IMG/VR virus record: IMGVR_UViG_3300045993_000477
Coordinates: 1 to 45,313 of that record
Strand: one strand, 5' to 3'
Length of the DNA stretch: 45,313 nucleotides
Origin: a virus
Under the pieces are notes generated by a model. It had not been told where the DNA came from. It was given only the letters and a program-made list of their open reading frames with translations, and made no database searches. Shown here piece after piece: positions 6,424-26,961 of this stretch (positions within the stretch are counted from its first letter, which is position 1; the number at the start of each line of letters is the position of its first letter). The position numbers were made by a program, and so were the translations under genes.

Positions 6424-7994
6424 GTCAAGCTGAAACAGTCGCTTTGCCCAAGCGCCTCCCTCTCGTCCCTCAACCCGAGAACCGGGATGAGAGCACGGAT
6501 AAGGATTCCAAGCTCGTCAACGGGTACGTGGAGAAGGGGAAGCAAGAAGGGGAGTTCTGGGTGTTCAAGCGGCCAGGGTTGCTTCAGTACGGCACAACGA
6601 AGGTAGGTGTGGGGCTAGGCGTGTATAACTGGCTCGGGGATATTTACTCCATCTTCGGTGTGACTCTGTACAAGAATGACACAAGTATCGGGACAGTCGG
6701 CGCAACCGGGGGGATGTATCGTTTCGCATCGAGCCTTGGTGCTACACCACGGTTACAGTTAGGGAACGGACAGACCGCTTATAACTGGGACGGGACCACC
6801 CTAACCCCCATCAGCATCCTCGCTACCGTCACCGCTGGAGACTTCATCGCCGGGGTAATCTACACTATCCTGACTGTCGGTACAACCGATTTCACCTTGA
6901 TAGGAGCCGCCTCGAATACTATCGGCGTCGTGTTTACAGCCACCGGCCCTGGTGTGGGTACAGGTACGGCGACTACGGACAGTAACTTTCCCCTGCTAGT
7001 CTGTAAAGGCTGGGCGTATCTTGACGGAACTACTTACGTGATGGACCCAACAGCGTATATTCACGGGAGTGATACCGCCATTGGAATGAACCGTCCAGAT
7101 CTGTGGGTGGACCTCACCAATACGATTGGTGCGCAGATTGAACCAGACCGTGGAGTGTTCCTGGCGAAGCAGCTGGTGTATGTGCTGGCACTGAAGGAGT
7201 GGTCGACGGAGGTATTTTACGACGCGCAGAATCCCGTTGGGGCGTCTCCCCTCGGTCCGGTGCAGGGGGCTAAGATCAACTACGGTTGCGTGAGTGCGGA
7301 TTCGGTACAGGAGATTGATGGTACGTTGATCTGGCTGGCGACTAATCGAGCCAGCGCGAGCCAAGTCATCGCAGTTGATAACCTAAAGTCAAGTGTGATA
7401 TCCACCAAGCCCATCGAGCGCTTGCTGGGGGAAGCGACCTTCACTAACATTGCCTCCTTCGGCATCAAGTACGAAGGCCATCGCTTCTACGTGCTGACGC
7501 TGAAGGATGAGAACCTCACCCTTGTCTACGACATGACGGATAAGATGTGGAGCCAGTGGACTGATGTCGACGGGAACTGGTTTAAGATTGTCGCCGGAAC
7601 TTTCCAGTCGGGAACTGGCCGGATTCTCCAGCACCATAATAATGGGAAGTTGTACCTGATGGATTCCGCGTACACTTCCGACGACGGAGAAGCCATCACG
7701 GTGGATCTGTACACGCCGAACTTCGACGGAGGTACTCGCCGCCGGAAGCAAATGACAATGGAGGAATTCATCGGGGATCAGACGCCTGGGTCAATCCTCC
7801 AGGTCTGTGTGAACGACTCTGACTACGCAGCGGATTCTTGGTCCTCCTTCCGCTTGGTTGATATGAGCGTCAAGCGACCGTTGCTGACGAATTGCGGAAC
7901 CTTTGTCAAACGCGCCACGCACCTTCGGCATCAGTCGAATACCCGCTTACGCCTCCAAGGGATAGAAATGCAACTTGACCTGGGGACACTCTAA
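6420..7994 (+). CDS. P22 gp10-like tail hub / packaged DNA stabilisation protein
   Basis: 524 residues. It begins with the family-typical KRLPLVPQPENRD and has the beta-propeller-like middle and end (LIWLATNRASASQVIAVDN, FYVLTLKDENLTLVYDM). It belongs to the Phage_stabilise family, which forms the tail hub under the gp4 ring. A segment of about 50 residues (about 136-187) containing VGTTDFTLIGA and VFTATGPGVGTGTA looks inserted into this fold; the same phrase occurs as a mobile module in unrelated phage tail proteins. The protein is roughly 50 residues longer than P22 gp10, in agreement. Overlap with gp4-like is four bases. Confidence 0.8.
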   Translation: MSQAETVALPKRLPLVPQPENRDESTDKDSKLVNGYVEKGKQEGEFWVFKRPGLLQYGTTKVGVGLGVYNWLGDIYSIFGVTLYKNDTSIGTVGATGGMYRFASSLGATPRLQLGNGQTAYNWDGTTLTPISILATVTAGDFIAGVIYTILTVGTTDFTLIGAASNTIGVVFTATGPGVGTGTATTDSNFPLLVCKGWAYLDGTTYVMDPTAYIHGSDTAIGMNRPDLWVDLTNTIGAQIEPDRGVFLAKQLVYVLALKEWSTEVFYDAQNPVGASPLGPVQGAKINYGCVSADSVQEIDGTLIWLATNRASASQVIAVDNLKSSVISTKPIERLLGEATFTNIASFGIKYEGHRFYVLTLKDENLTLVYDMTDKMWSQWTDVDGNWFKIVAGTFQSGTGRILQHHNNGKLYLMDSAYTSDDGEAITVDLYTPNFDGGTRRRKQMTMEEFIGDQTPGSILQVCVNDSDYAADSWSSFRLVDMSVKRPLLTNCGTFVKRATHLRHQSNTRLRLQGIEMQLDLGTL

Positions 7995-22173: not shown

Positions 22174-23418
22174 TCAAACGATTACCGAATCTGGCGTGAT
22201 GATCTGCCGGGCCGCCTTGCAGGGCTGGAGGCGCATTCCGAGGGAGGTGGAGACTAGTTCCACTTGCCCCGAGCGAATCGCGCCGGAGAGGATACCTTCG
22301 AAATCCCGGTGATCCGGGAAGTAGAGGTGGATCATCTTGTAAGCCTCTTCGTAGGTGACGCTGCCCTTCCTGATAACATACTCGATGAAGCGCTCGGCTT
22401 GCATTGAATCCTCCGTGCGACCGATGCGGCTGAACACTTTGGGCATATCGGCTTCCAGGTCCAGCAGCATATTGTTTGCGAGCTGGAGATCGTCGGCTGT
22501 GATTACCCGGTCGGAAGATCGCGACGCACTGATCACCATGGCGACTTTGTGCATGTGAGTCTGCTTCCGGGCGGCGTAGCCTTGGGCCATCTGATCGTCC
22601 ATCCGGGAGACCGCGTCGCCCCAGAAGTTTTCATACCACGATGCTCCCCAAGCGCGGGCGTTGGCAGTCAGGGAGAAGGGACCTGTCATCATGCTGATTT
22701 GCTCGAGGTCGTGGATGAGCTTGTCTCTAACAGCTTCGTCTTCTCCATTCACTTGCTCGTCAACATAAGCAACGTACCTTTCTTTCTTCTCAGCGTACAC
22801 AAAGATGCAGCGGGAAGTAAGACCTCCTCCAATCATAGCCTGGGGCATATTATCTGCTACCCAATGGGGAGTCGTGGCAGCGATAAGGTTAATCCAGGGC
22901 GCTTCCACTGTATCATTACCTGACATTTTAGTAATCTTTTCATACGAGCGCTTACCATCCCACAGCTCCAGTAGCAAGTTAACCATATCCTTATCTTGGA
23001 GATTAAGCAAGGAACCTAACTCCGACGCAACGAGTGTTAAAGGTGACATAGGATGCCATTCACCTTGCCATTCGTAAGCTTCAGACGAGGCTGCAAAAGC
23101 AGTAACGAGAGCTTGCCAGGTAATAGCATTAGGTCCGAATTTAACACCTGGCACTTTCTTAAGCAAGTCCATTGCTATATCTATCGTGGTGGATTTAGAT
23201 ACAACTCCCGGCGGGGCAACGAATATAATGTAAAAACTGGGGAACCATGAAAAGCGTTTTTGGTCTAACCATACACGTCTGCGAAGACACCCCGCGATGG
23301 CACTGACACCTGCCCAGAAGTGCATACGCTTGGGGGCTTCTGTAACTGAAGCGTAGTTTATATAAGCAGGTAGCCAATCGCCAAAGTGCCTTGCTCCTAT
23401 CTCGTCAATGTTTCCCAT
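22174..23418 (-). CDS. DUF3987-type P-loop ATPase, replicative helicase-like
   Basis: 414 residues from ATG at 23418 (MGNIDEIGARHFGDWLPAYI; AAGGT upstream). An earlier ATG at 23589 lies within the preceding gene. The phrase APKRMHFWAGVSAIAGCLRRR and FVAPPGVVSKST (residues 67-77) are characteristic of DUF3987. The Walker A is altered, with Ser where the second Gly of GxxxxGK[ST] normally stands. TLVASELGSLL is the likely Walker B area. These proteins take the place of a helicase/primase in many phage replication modules. The gene follows the DNA polymerase in the same operon. Helicase activity is inferred from context. Confidence 0.7.
   Translation of the reverse strand: MGNIDEIGARHFGDWLPAYINYASVTEAPKRMHFWAGVSAIAGCLRRRVWLDQKRFSWFPSFYIIFVAPPGVVSKSTTIDIAMDLLKKVPGVKFGPNAITWQALVTAFAASSEAYEWQGEWHPMSPLTLVASELGSLLNLQDKDMVNLLLELWDGKRSYEKITKMSGNDTVEAPWINLIAATTPHWVADNMPQAMIGGGLTSRCIFVYAEKKERYVAYVDEQVNGEDEAVRDKLIHDLEQISMMTGPFSLTANARAWGASWYENFWGDAVSRMDDQMAQGYAARKQTHMHKVAMVISASRSSDRVITADDLQLANNMLLDLEADMPKVFSRIGRTEDSMQAERFIEYVIRKGSVTYEEAYKMIHLYFPDHRDFEGILSGAIRSGQVELVSTSLGMRLQPCKAARQIITPDSVIV
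23241..23268 (+). promoter_or_regulatory. Antisense match to the ECF promoter pattern (P9)
   Basis: GGAACCA, a 15-base spacer and GTCTAA on the plus strand inside the minus-strand DUF3987 gene. The -10 box and spacing are perfect; the -35 is GGAAC with CA in place of TT. It would make an antisense RNA toward the polymerase operon. It lies in coding sequence, so chance remains possible. Confidence 0.35.
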
Positions 23419-23639
23419 GGAGGACCTTTCCGCGCAATGGCTATGAGTTGGCTGACGGTAGATTGAACGGTGTTGTACTGTTGAGCGATAAGCCTTTGCG
23501 GAAGTCCTTGATTGGATAGTCGTAACATCTCTAGCATTACGTCCGGGGTCCCCGCAAGTGATCGACTGTTTTGTTCTTTCGGCAGCCACCTACAATTACT
23601 AGGTTCGTAGTTTCCGTTGTTGTTAAAAGTGTTGCTCAT
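23397..23639 (-). CDS. Truncated HNH/AP2-type homing endonuclease remnant with HTH tail
   Basis: 80 residues. It begins with the very end of an HNH domain (NNNGNYEPSNCRWLPKEQNS) and lacks the front half with its catalytic histidines. The gene at 25071 shows a full version of this fold. The C-terminal half (SNQGLPQRLIAQQYNTVQST) looks like a helix-turn-helix DNA-binding end, usual in such endonucleases. The start overlaps the polymerase stop (TAATG). It is probably a decaying mobile gene, or a leftover DNA-binding protein. Confidence 0.6.
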   Translation of the reverse strand: MSNTFNNNGNYEPSNCRWLPKEQNSRSLAGTPDVMLEMLRLSNQGLPQRLIAQQYNTVQSTVSQLIAIARKGPPWETLTR

Positions 23640-25078
23640 TATTCAACATCTCCCCAGGATACGGTCGACGTCTTGACACCAGTTGGGATTACGAGTGGTG
23701 GATCGTAAGGGATCTCAATACGAGAATGCTTCTCCATCAGCGGAAGGATATAATCTCTCCGGTGGGTAGGGAATTGTCCGGCCAAAGAGTCATGAACTTG
23801 AAGGAGTACTTGGACTTCAGGAATGTTCTCGTAGAAGCTCGTCCAGATTCTATTAATTAAAATTCCAACCGTGGACTGAGGAACCCAGGCGAGTGCTTCG
23901 GGAAGTAGGGCTTCCATGCGATCAAAGATATACCATCTGTATCCCCAGCGATTCTCGACAAATCTGTACTTGTTGATCTGATCAAAGGTCCGAGCGTGCC
24001 ATTGTGCGATGCCTGGGTGGGCAGAGAACCAGTACTTCTGAGCTTGGTCAATTTCATGGACCGTCCGACCTGTGTGAGCAGCTACCGTCTTAGCCCCACC
24101 GCCGTAGTTCGTAGCGTGGGCGAAGACCTTAGCGAACTCCCGAGCGTGCTTGAGAGGGATGCGATGGTCCTTGTAACGAGGGTGGGATTCGACTAGTTCG
24201 TCGAGGGGCGGCGGTTCCTTCTTCGCTATGATGAACGCGTTAAGCAAATGCATATCCACTCCCTGGATCATGGCGGCAATCCAGTCCGGCTCCCCCGCCT
24301 CTCTCACTACGACTTGTAAGTCTGCCCGGTCAAGGTCCATGTCGAAGAAAGTAAAGCCCGCGTCCGGTCCATACATTGAGCGTATGTTAGGTAAGGTGAA
24401 GTCCATAGATCCACGAGCAGCTGCTTTTCCGCTGGACTTAGACTTCTCGGAAGGAATTGTTTGCAGATTTCCTCCACTTCCGAAAGGGTTTTTGGACGAA
24501 CTGAGTCGGTATGAGTAAGGGGCAGATTTTCCACCAGCGTCTCCTGCTATGTTGAATGAACAGCGCATACGGCCATCTTCATCCAGCGGCATCATCACGA
24601 AGTCCCCGAGGAACTTGTGAAGCGTGCGGATGTCGGCGATGGCGTTGCAGATTGGTTTGATCAGAGGCTCCTTGGCGGCGAGCTTGGACAGGGCTTCATC
24701 GTCGCAGGTCGGGGACATTTTGGTTTGTCCTTGGACTACCGTGCGTTTGTAGATGACGGGTTGCTTGAGGTCCTCGTACATTAGTACTTGCATCTGCTTC
24801 GGCGACGAAGGATTGATGGTGTGCCCAAGGATATTGTGGAGGAAGGCTTCACGCTTTGACAACTCCTCCTGAATGTCTAGGGCCATTTGATTCTTTACTT
24901 CAGAGCGAATCCGCACACCTTTAATCATGGCGGCTAGGACAGGCCTGAACAGCTTTTGCTGCGTATCATCCACGTGTTCGAGCTTCATTGCTTGCGCTGT
25001 GATGCGAAGCACTTCTCCTACCTCACGCGTGTAGACGCAATCCTTGCAGTTATATTCCCACAGTTGGTCATCACTCAT
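23639..25078 (-). CDS. Family A DNA polymerase, polymerase half of a split gene
   Basis: 479 residues. Begins SDDQLWEYNCKDCVYTREV, which is the end of the exonuclease domain (the YxxKDxxxT element after Exo III), so the front of the enzyme is encoded separately at 25493-26506. Polymerase motifs are present: motif A FFDMDLDRADLQVV (Asp246), motif B REFAKVFAHATNYGG (Arg313, Lys317, Tyr325), motif C LLQVHDSLAGQ (Asp430, with Ser instead of the usual Glu after it). The thumb/fingers region is complete. The start overlaps the HNH gene by eight bases. The two halves probably assemble into one enzyme. Confidence 0.85.
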   Translation of the reverse strand: MSDDQLWEYNCKDCVYTREVGEVLRITAQAMKLEHVDDTQQKLFRPVLAAMIKGVRIRSEVKNQMALDIQEELSKREAFLHNILGHTINPSSPKQMQVLMYEDLKQPVIYKRTVVQGQTKMSPTCDDEALSKLAAKEPLIKPICNAIADIRTLHKFLGDFVMMPLDEDGRMRCSFNIAGDAGGKSAPYSYRLSSSKNPFGSGGNLQTIPSEKSKSSGKAAARGSMDFTLPNIRSMYGPDAGFTFFDMDLDRADLQVVVREAGEPDWIAAMIQGVDMHLLNAFIIAKKEPPPLDELVESHPRYKDHRIPLKHAREFAKVFAHATNYGGGAKTVAAHTGRTVHEIDQAQKYWFSAHPGIAQWHARTFDQINKYRFVENRWGYRWYIFDRMEALLPEALAWVPQSTVGILINRIWTSFYENIPEVQVLLQVHDSLAGQFPTHRRDYILPLMEKHSRIEIPYDPPLVIPTGVKTSTVSWGDVE

Positions 25079-25493
25079 GCTGCCGCCGATTGTTAGCTTG
25101 CTCGGTCCAAGTGGCCCAACAGCAGTTAGCTTTATTGTAGTTTACGTTTGAGTCTTTACGTTCTAGCGTTAGGCCTTCAATCCAGCTAGGCCAGAGGTCT
25201 TTGTAAAAGTTTTTGAATTGCTTCCACTCGGCACTATAAGTAACACCGCGCTCCCCGTACCAGTGATACTGAGTACTGTTCGGATTATCACAGCGAGTTT
25301 TCATGTTGCACCAAGCTAGGTAAAAAGGATGGTGCTTGTGTAGGCCTAGTCTAGCAAGTTCTCCATGTTCCATTGATTGAAAGCCGGGCAGAGTGGCGTT
25401 AACATCTTGCCCTTTCATCAGGCGTTTGTAGTGCTTACCACACAGCCCGCGAGCAAAAGTTTCCTTCATACAATCATCAGCGTAGCAAAACAT
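25071..25493 (-). CDS. HNH-type homing endonuclease inserted in the DNA polymerase gene
   Basis: 140 residues. N-terminal cysteine cluster (CYADDCMKETFARGLCGKHY, a small zinc-binding module), then YLAWCNMKTRCDNPNS and YHWYGERGVTYSAEWKQFKN and finally NYNKANCCWATWTEQANNRR. This is the W-x-M-x-x-RC ... YGxRG ... NY-x-x-x-NCRWAT order of phage HNH/AP2-type homing endonucleases. It overlaps the exonuclease half by one base (TAATG) and the polymerase half by eight bases, and uses the end of the first half as its ribosome site (GAGGAG). Confidence 0.8.
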   Translation of the reverse strand: MFCYADDCMKETFARGLCGKHYKRLMKGQDVNATLPGFQSMEHGELARLGLHKHHPFYLAWCNMKTRCDNPNSTQYHWYGERGVTYSAEWKQFKNFYKDLWPSWIEGLTLERKDSNVNYNKANCCWATWTEQANNRRQHE

Positions 25494-26506
25494 TATTTCT
25501 CCTCTATTTTCCAGTTAGTGTACCAGTCGCTGTAAAGGGACGCGAGAAAGTCCAGGCCTTTTGGCAACGCGCAGAAGCAAGAATGCTGTGTTATCATGGT
25601 ATCTTGCGCTACGTTGGGGATGAAGTGCCAGTAGCGATAAGTGTACTGGCAGTCGAATAAAAGATTCTGACCACGCACTTTGATCTTCGGGTGAGTGAGG
25701 AGTTTGTATAACTTGTGTATTAAGTAAGCTTCTTGGTCTGGTTCCCAGTAGTCGGCGTAGCCATCAGTGACTGGGATGCAGATAGCTTCTTCAACAGACC
25801 ACGACAACCCAACGCAGCGGATATGCTTAGAGTGGATGAAAGTTTCTAAGTCGAACTCGATCCAGGTTTCGTCCGCTAGCTCTGTCTTTGCCATGAGCAT
25901 ATCAAGCGTAGACTCAGCAAGCTCAAAGCTCGGGCGGACTATGAACTTCCACCCTGGCTTGTTCGTGTACGGGCCAGGGTAGGTCATGTGTCGCTTGGCC
26001 CGGCGGAGATCGGACAGGACCACTGCGCGCTGAGGCCACTCGCGGATCACTGCGCCAGGGGTGAGGGTAGGGATGACCTTGCGACCGTGGGCCGTGACGA
26101 GCTGGGAGCCGCGCCACTTCAACACCCCCCAGTGGCCCGTGAGCACCCAACACGCCAGGTTGCCGAAGGCGATAATCAGATTCGGCTGGACCATCTCGAT
26201 CTCAGCAGCTAGCTCTGCCGCGCCCTGATGAATCTCCTCAGTGCAATAAAGGTCCTGGAGAATCCGATGCTTCGGGCCAATGTCCTTCTTCTTCAGGGCG
26301 ATCCAAGTACTCAGCTGTCCGAAGGGAGGTCGGGTTTTGCAAGCTAATGTAACATAACACTCTGCCCTCATAATGCCAACCTCATGCAGCATTCTGTTTA
26401 ACTCCATGCCGGAGGCTCCATCAAAAGGAACTCTATCACGTTCCCCGGGAAACTCTCCGACAAGCAATACTCTTGCAGGTATAGGGCCCTCGCCATGAAT
26501 TCTCAT
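25493..26506 (-). CDS. Uracil-DNA glycosylase-like domain fused to the 3'-5' exonuclease half of DNA polymerase
   Basis: 337 residues from ATG at 26506 (AAAGGA upstream; ATGA overlap with the HNH gene before it). Residues 13-50 hold VLLVGEFPGERDRVPFDG, the first motif of family 4/5 uracil-DNA glycosylases. The second motif is weak (TLTPGAVIREWP, lacking the usual His-Pro). From about 210 the DnaQ-like exonuclease begins: Exo I IEFDLET (Asp219, Glu221), Exo II GQNLLFDCQY (Asp285), Exo III start AQDTMITQH (Asp302) and LPKGLDFLASLYSDWY. Translation stops right there, and the rest of the enzyme is at 23639-25078. It supplies proofreading to the split polymerase. Confidence 0.8.
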   Translation of the reverse strand: MRIHGEGPIPARVLLVGEFPGERDRVPFDGASGMELNRMLHEVGIMRAECYVTLACKTRPPFGQLSTWIALKKKDIGPKHRILQDLYCTEEIHQGAAELAAEIEMVQPNLIIAFGNLACWVLTGHWGVLKWRGSQLVTAHGRKVIPTLTPGAVIREWPQRAVVLSDLRRAKRHMTYPGPYTNKPGWKFIVRPSFELAESTLDMLMAKTELADETWIEFDLETFIHSKHIRCVGLSWSVEEAICIPVTDGYADYWEPDQEAYLIHKLYKLLTHPKIKVRGQNLLFDCQYTYRYWHFIPNVAQDTMITQHSCFCALPKGLDFLASLYSDWYTNWKIEEK

Positions 26507-26961
26507 GACGGTTCCTTTAACCAAGCCCCGTCGGTTTTAGTTTTAATGCGACTGATTGCGGAAGGGTTAACTGCATAGGTACGAGCTATGCTGCTGTTAC
26601 TTAGTCCTAGTGAAAGTAATTTACGAATCTTAAGGACTTGCTCTTCTGTTAATTTACCTGAGGCACTTTGGCGCCCGTGAGGCAGTCGCCCTTTAGTCGC
26701 AGCATCCTGCATATTAGCTTGTCGAGTACCCGCAATAAGATGTGCAGGATTTAGGCAATTTCTTACATCGCAAGTGTGCATTACGTCCAGCCCTGTAGGC
26801 ACCTCTCCGTGGTATAACTTGTATACTAATCTGTGTACTCCCTGGGGGCGACCTTCGTGACGTAGCTGCCCGTAACCATTGTCGCTTTGACTTCCTAGCC
26901 ACAGATGACACGTAGCAGTTACTTGTGTTTTAGATTTGAGCTTTTGCTCCAGCGTTGCCAT
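26503..26961 (-). CDS. HNH endonuclease (HNH_3 type) with C-terminal HTH
   Basis: 152 residues. CHLWLGSQSDNGYGQLRHEG, VHRLVYKLYHGEVP, VMHTCDVRNCLNPAHLIAGT and RQANMQDAATKGR follow the classical HNH_3 layout, with His in VHR, MHTCD and NPAHL as the likely metal and catalytic set. Residues 100-147 (LTEEQVLKIRKLLSLGLSNS ... AISRIKT) form a helix-turn-helix that probably provides target specificity. It sits directly upstream of the polymerase front half with an ATGA overlap, a third homing-type gene in this locus. Confidence 0.8.
   Translation of the reverse strand: MATLEQKLKSKTQVTATCHLWLGSQSDNGYGQLRHEGRPQGVHRLVYKLYHGEVPTGLDVMHTCDVRNCLNPAHLIAGTRQANMQDAATKGRLPHGRQSASGKLTEEQVLKIRKLLSLGLSNSSIARTYAVNPSAISRIKTKTDGAWLKEPS

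Follow-up and report, generated by a model that had tools for sequence, protein, structure and literature searches.

What becomes of a DNA polymerase when a small gene of the HNH homing type lies inside its coding sequence: is one chain still made, or has the enzyme turned into two? The question is raised by the virus record IMGVR_UViG_3300045993_000477, a stretch of 45,313 bases analysed here as a whole (the window), in which a family A polymerase gene on the minus strand is spread over two open reading frames (ORFs) with a third between them. An earlier sequence-only reading had proposed that an HNH-type gene splits the polymerase, and all three ORFs are confirmed. The upstream ORF (P0001, 337 aa, 25493-26506) carries a UDG domain and the exonuclease half of the polymerase, the middle one (P0003, 140 aa, 25071-25493) is the HNH homing-type endonuclease gene, and the downstream one (P0002, 479 aa, 23639-25078) contains the Exo III motif, followed by thumb, palm and fingers with motifs A, B and C. 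From comparison with related loci, I consider it probable that the HNH insertion split the polymerase, that the HNH gene homes together with the split site, and that the polymerase, as two polypeptides, outlives the endonuclease.

Both outer ORFs are assigned from the ORF list, Pfam, PHROG and alignment. In Pfam, the exonuclease half matches UDG (8.8e-18) and DNA_pol_A_exo1 (2.1e-5) and the polymerase half DNA_pol_A (1.4e-25); the two halves span phrog_17 (1445 long) consecutively, at 549-785 and 804-1232. Because of these consecutive matches, and because 109 of 128 distinct relatives have the gene in one open frame, the halves are not chance neighbours. The HNH ORF has no match in Pfam; it matches PHROG HNH families of the phrog_3377/374 group (phrog_3377, 1.1e-30, residues 52-138), keeps the family-core residues W61, R67, C68, Y119, N123, C124 and W126, has a predicted structure with a core above 90 in predicted local distance difference test (pLDDT) score, and has a homologue in a related locus described below. 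Overlaps of 1 and 8 bases with the halves had been noticed before and are indeed there. The exonuclease half ends in ...WKIEEK-TAA, and its stop shares one base with the HNH ATG (TAATG), upstream of which lies the ribosome-binding-like sequence GAGGAG; the HNH stop lies within the start of the polymerase half in the 8-base overlap ATGAGTGA (25071-25078, from the ORF coordinates), which suggests translational coupling of the HNH gene and the polymerase half. The polymerase half itself starts with MSDDQLWEYNCKDC.

The position of the cut differs from what had been supposed. The residues that I take to be Exo I (D219 and E221, codons about 25852-25844) and Exo II (N281 and D285, codons about 25666-25652) are in the exonuclease half, and those taken to be Exo III (YNCKD; Y9 and D13, 25054-25040) are in the polymerase half. 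The sequence-only reading had the exonuclease half stop right after Exo III, which is wrong, as Exo III opens the polymerase half, with no variation among 105 of 105 rows in the alignment. By its motifs, the gene is thus split between Exo II and Exo III, that is, through the predicted proofreading active site.

Relatives were collected by tblastn against annotated phages, by searches of viral contigs and from one genome contig, which gave 207 loci in total and 128 distinct ones with a polymerase match (numbered with an L in the following). This set was ascertained by sequence patterns, with six of its members being annotated phages chosen as top matches, and its fractions are not population frequencies. 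In 109 of the 128 loci the gene is intact (101 of them reaching residue 400), 16 are broken or carry an insert, and three, without an exonuclease part, were set aside; in bacterial and archaeal genomes only one distant relative was found. Among annotated phages, tblastn finds the whole gene in Manatee Spring phage ctMlz233 and Microcystis phage Mel-JY34. The nearest intact relative is L008, 94% identical in the polymerase half; in close intact relatives the split site is bridged by WKDEGKIASDVPEEQRWTYN or a similar sequence. Seven of the 128 are split at this site: the window, L022, L025, L210, L109, L110 and Caulobacter phage Kuura (L002), the last at a nearly identical point. A single sequencing error is an unlikely cause of the split, given the separate contigs, the isolate Kuura and the different spacings; the junction of L110 is shared by a second contig, L112, while the single-contig splits L109 and L025 are less secure in this respect.

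These seven loci differ in what lies between the halves. The window has a full HNH gene, and so has L210, at the same site and 55% identical to P0003 over 137 aa, with an identity to the window of only 45% in the polymerase core. In L022, whose halves are 80% (exonuclease) and 88% (polymerase) identical to those of the window and which has the same TAATG junction, the insert is a 31-codon HNH remnant, leaving 87 nt between the halves. Its polymerase ATG is preceded by AGGAGG, with an anti-Shine-Dalgarno pairing energy (dG) of -10.2, equalled or undercut in 1.8% of controls, these being the same energy at 493 ATG/GTG codons. No insert is present in L025, where the exonuclease stop overlaps a GTG start (dG -5.5, 17.6% of controls), in L109, where GGAGG precedes the ATG (dG -9.5, 2.4%), or in L110 (dG -6.4, 9.1%). 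In Kuura, two small ORFs, unrelated and non-HNH, lie between the halves (dG -2.1 or -3.9). The junction residues of L109 and L110 (QWKP.K...WK.G., HETE.D) are similar to those of L210, which suggests that both derive from HNH-bearing alleles. Taken from these relatives, the comparison suggests that the polymerase keeps working as two pieces after decay or loss of the HNH gene.

These alleles bear directly on whether an intron is present. The sequence-only reading had dismissed a classical group I intron as almost all of the insert is coding. Its conclusion is borne out by Rfam and by the split relatives, but the argument from coding density is weak, for in phage Pf-WMP3 parts of the intron core are encoded within the endonuclease ORF (PMC3428280). 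A compact group I intron with its core overlapping the HNH ORF, splicing of which would restore one polymerase, could therefore be imagined, the more so as HNH genes are common in introns of phage polymerase genes (PMC3428280) and 417 nt separate the two halves without a change of frame. Rfam gives no match in the whole window at gathering scores, and when the insert region (24900-25650) is scanned permissively there are 0 matches at E<=5, whereas the introns of Pf-WMP3 and SPO1, run as positive controls under the same settings, are found at E 7e-6 and 0.0016, both under the gathering score. Also, the stop of the exonuclease half overlaps the HNH start codon, ahead of which there is a ribosome site, and in split relatives both halves are retained with an insert of only 87 nt or with none. 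Such an insert cannot house a group I intron and yet both halves are conserved there, which excludes an intron as the cause of the split. With the negative Rfam scans, their positive controls and the HNH-free splits together, a group I or II intron is ruled out, and even the compact version is exceedingly improbable. Relatives with an intact gene had been named as a comparison that might reveal an intron; they exist, but do not make the insert one. An intein or split intein in the window is ruled out too, since the insert starts with a stop codon (TAA). Of the two outcomes that had been offered, two polypeptides or joining at the RNA level, two polypeptides are the most likely from these sequences, and joining by an intron is contradicted by the HNH-poor and HNH-free splits and the Rfam negatives.

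One chain could also be regained in translation, if a frameshift, stop readthrough or ribosome bypass yielded some full-length polymerase. T4 gene 60 uses ribosome bypass, which is a precedent for recoding of this kind. That gene is split by mobA (PMC2988022), and two loci of the survey that are broken after Exo III, L183 and L185, carry CCT-TAG-C, a possible +1 shift site. However, frames and spacings vary among the split alleles (417 nt in the window and 87 nt in L022, in the same frame; other frames in L025 and L110), and in L022 and L109 each polymerase half comes with its own strong start signal. Recoding is very improbable.

Are both pieces still in use? As the split cuts the exonuclease domain itself, the exonuclease half might be a relic, with the polymerase half acting alone without proofreading and the UDG-exonuclease fragment having some other role or none. 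The aligned sequences do not favour this: the Exo I D/E, Exo II D and Exo III Y/D residues are kept in 105 of 105 rows, including all six split ones checked (L210, found later, is outside this alignment). Between the window and L022, the ratio of nonsynonymous to synonymous change (dN/dS) is 0.062 in the exonuclease half, 0.048 in the polymerase half and 0.044 in the exonuclease tract, values that are rough because synonymous sites are near saturation. The polymerase motif residues are also kept in the split rows, except for one D-to-E change in Kuura. A relic is improbable on this evidence.

A structural model of the intact L008 protein (mean pLDDT 90.8) matches Klenow and Bst Pol I with template modelling (TM) scores to target of 0.77-0.81; as modelled, this is a family A polymerase with the Pol I fold, Exo I-III and motifs A, B and C. 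Residues 337-340, which form the split site, are the sole stretch of at least three residues with pLDDT below 50, and the Exo III helix follows at 345-372. The flexible loop before this helix is a plausible break point for reassembly from two chains. The site before motif A, where some other loci are split, lies within another low-confidence loop (551-570).

The surroundings of the split site are mosaic. When identity is scored in bins of 150 nt, values between the window and intact L008 lie mostly at 80-97% along the polymerase core; at 25950-25500 and 25050-24900 they fall to 62-70%, and there L022 has 67-89%. Among the sites that distinguish L008 from L022, the window agrees with L022 by 145:47 inside 25906-24854 and with L008 by 266:99 outside (Fisher 3e-28, the bins having been set after inspection; 9e-19 when the distance is fixed at 400 nt). 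This putative co-conversion tract (24854-25906 on the minus strand, from the site and bin comparison and from trees) includes the HNH gene. In a DNA tree of the tract, the window, L022 and L025 form one clade (100/100) and a grouping of the window with L008 is rejected (approximately unbiased test, p-AU 1.6e-4), whereas in the flank tree the window groups with L008, L022 with L017/L018 and L025 with L031, and a single split clade is rejected (p-AU 5.9e-6); both trees have 33 rows, after dropping 8 near-identical ones of 41. A 2-residue insertion after Exo I is exclusive to the window, L022 and L025 among the 105 rows. Third codon positions support the kinship of window and L022 in the tract; L025 is placed there by its amino acids and by the insertion that it shares. 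For the second group, L210, L109 and L110, the flanks do not form a clade (rejected, p-AU 4.9e-10).

Homing of the HNH gene with the split site would leave such a pattern, but there is a competing account in which the gene is split as described, the HNH gene is a passive passenger, and the mosaic is due to ordinary phage recombination. Several observations weigh against the preferred reading, with homing and two polypeptides. A further mosaic tract in the ParB/methyltransferase gene (window 28350-27900), where L022 is nearer than L008, has no HNH gene inside, so the tract at the split site could be ordinary exchange as well; L008 could also be the converted party. Only two full-length HNH copies were found at the split site, in the window and in L210 (the latter found by a search with L110): P0003 as query had no match in viral contigs, and searches with P0001 and with the tract alignment gave no additional HNH carriers. 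P0003 departs from its family consensus at several positions, and its model has no match in the PDB below E 0.001, the best HNH entry being PacI at E 2.9. In the exonuclease tract, L025 is at third codon positions 42% and 36% identical to its split relatives and 48% to L031. The tract of L210, L109 and L110 forms one clade in one quick tree (98) and is broken in another, with the clade not rejected (p-AU 0.71); one of these second-group trees was made after dropping 8 long-branch rows of 120, and another with 31 hand-chosen rows. Finally, the ribosome site before the window's own polymerase half is weak (dG -5.0, a value reached by 21.5% of controls), and this half would have to rely on coupling for its translation. 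Still, the tract flanks the insert on both sides, split alleles occur in three different backgrounds, and the distant polymerase of L210 is interrupted by a homologous HNH gene at this very site. A passive passenger is therefore unlikely, though by no means far-fetched, and insertion and homing of the HNH gene are preferred here.

On the preferred reading, a small HNH gene would have inserted into a family A UDG-exonuclease-polymerase gene, where a loop leads into the Exo III helix. Since the insert carried a start and a stop codon itself, the gene would have become three overlapping cistrons on one message, for the UDG and exonuclease core, for the HNH protein, and for the Exo III helix with the polymerase. 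The two enzyme parts would fold apart and then associate non-covalently, so that the proofreading site is restored at their interface. Judging from the mosaicism, the HNH gene probably spreads by cutting intact alleles, with repair copying the split allele and its flanks. Dispensable after homing, it would then decay, and the split would persist because the halves own their start signals. Endonuclease activity, assembly of the subunits and the direction of transfer are here inferred from sequence.

The remaining nine of the 16 interrupted loci are interrupted elsewhere. Four are split before motif A (L003 4597-5189, L046 6634-6800, L048 6636-6878 and L159 6600-6639), the parts having either small unrelated ORFs between them or no insert. 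Three are broken after Exo III. In one, L006 (ctLwi270, 2696-2848), the intervening frame looks zinc-finger-like by eye, and a very strong ribosome site precedes the polymerase half. The other two, L183 (7090-7140) and L185 (7930-7980), are broken just past Exo III; although their proteins have diverged, about 21 bases (CCTTGGTGTCCGTCCTTAGCTC) are identical between them. Translation could there restart at a GTG or shift by +1 at CCT-TAG-C. L185 also has, at about 7140-7910, an in-frame intein-like insert with a LAGLIDADG-like motif inside Exo III (YN|C...HN|CED). Of the last two loci, L145 has a frameshift near the C-terminus and L040 an in-frame intein-like insert at polymerase motif B (6972-7855).

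On the minus strand of the window, the order of genes is a ParB/methyltransferase gene, an HNH_3 gene, the UDG-exonuclease ORF, the HNH ORF, the polymerase ORF, an HNH remnant and a DUF3987 primase-type gene. The HNH_3 gene (26503-26961; HNH_3 and helix-turn-helix, by Pfam and PHROG), the third HNH gene here, overlaps the start of the UDG-exonuclease half and is outside the split. The remnant (23397-23639), assigned by PHROG and absent from the earlier account of the split, lies 3' of the polymerase with a TAATG overlap; its 80-aa ORF has lost about 60 codons in frame relative to the full-length gene in L008 (7032-7457) and, by this comparison, is a second case of HNH decay at the polymerase locus.

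Genes in pieces made by a free-standing homing endonuclease are an already known kind. Insertions of homing endonuclease genes split Aeromonas phage Aeh1 nrdA, the T4 topoisomerase gene and possibly gene 43 of phage 25, the two products of which co-purify and polymerise (PMC2988022). With Aeh1 nrdA/mobE the window shares a free-standing HNH gene in an essential phage gene that yields two polypeptides, and T4 mobE starts in an UAAUGA overlap with the upstream stop, the same UAAUG start overlap as that of the window HNH gene (PMC2988022). However, nrdA encodes another enzyme, ribonucleotide reductase, and the present locus has an HNH remnant, HNH-free alleles and a conflict between tract and flank trees. 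Gene 43 of Aeromonas phages 25 and 44RR likewise encodes a replicative polymerase in two pieces, but of family B, with seg43 (GIY-YIG) or an untranslated spacer between them and an unclear origin of the split (PMC2988022), whereas the window has a family A polymerase, an HNH gene and a cut before Exo III. I-HmuI, I-BasI and I-PfoP3I also are HNH genes inside family A phage polymerase genes, but these are in group I introns (PMC3428280, PMC11878797); in the window no intron was detected, and relatives have HNH-free splits, which an intron would not leave. In the OM43 phages MEP401 and MEP402, too, a small ORF divides a family A polymerase into two ORFs, but it does so inside the polymerase domain, is of unknown nature, and an intron was left open there (PMC10580990). 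No report of the present polymerase split was found in the open-access literature. The window resembles Aeh1 nrdA, the T4 topoisomerase gene and phage 25 gene 43 in the way it works, and differs from them in the enzyme family, the cut through the predicted proofreading site, and the surviving HNH-poor and HNH-free alleles.

Split genes made by homing endonuclease genes had previously been few single cases, some of unclear origin. Here a graded series is available at one site, from intact over split with HNH gene and split with HNH remnant to split with nothing between, to which the homologous HNH gene at the same site in a distant polymerase adds. This series makes testable the change from one chain to a stable two-subunit enzyme, its reversibility, and a proofreading site built from two chains. 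It is also a warning for annotation, as what looks like a polymerase fragment in a phage genome may be a genuine subunit and need not come from an intron or a sequencing error. A wider proposal, possible but held tentatively, is that homing endonuclease insertion is the usual route to an obligate two-subunit polymerase with a shared proofreading site. The HNH-free splits (L025, L109, L110 and Kuura), and perhaps the two other split positions before motif A and after Exo III, would then be its fossils, the split allele would move with its adapted flanks as a unit, and one chain would have become two repeatedly and without return. If this is true, an essential enzyme would have been turned into a two-chain form again and again by a selfish gene, irreversibly.

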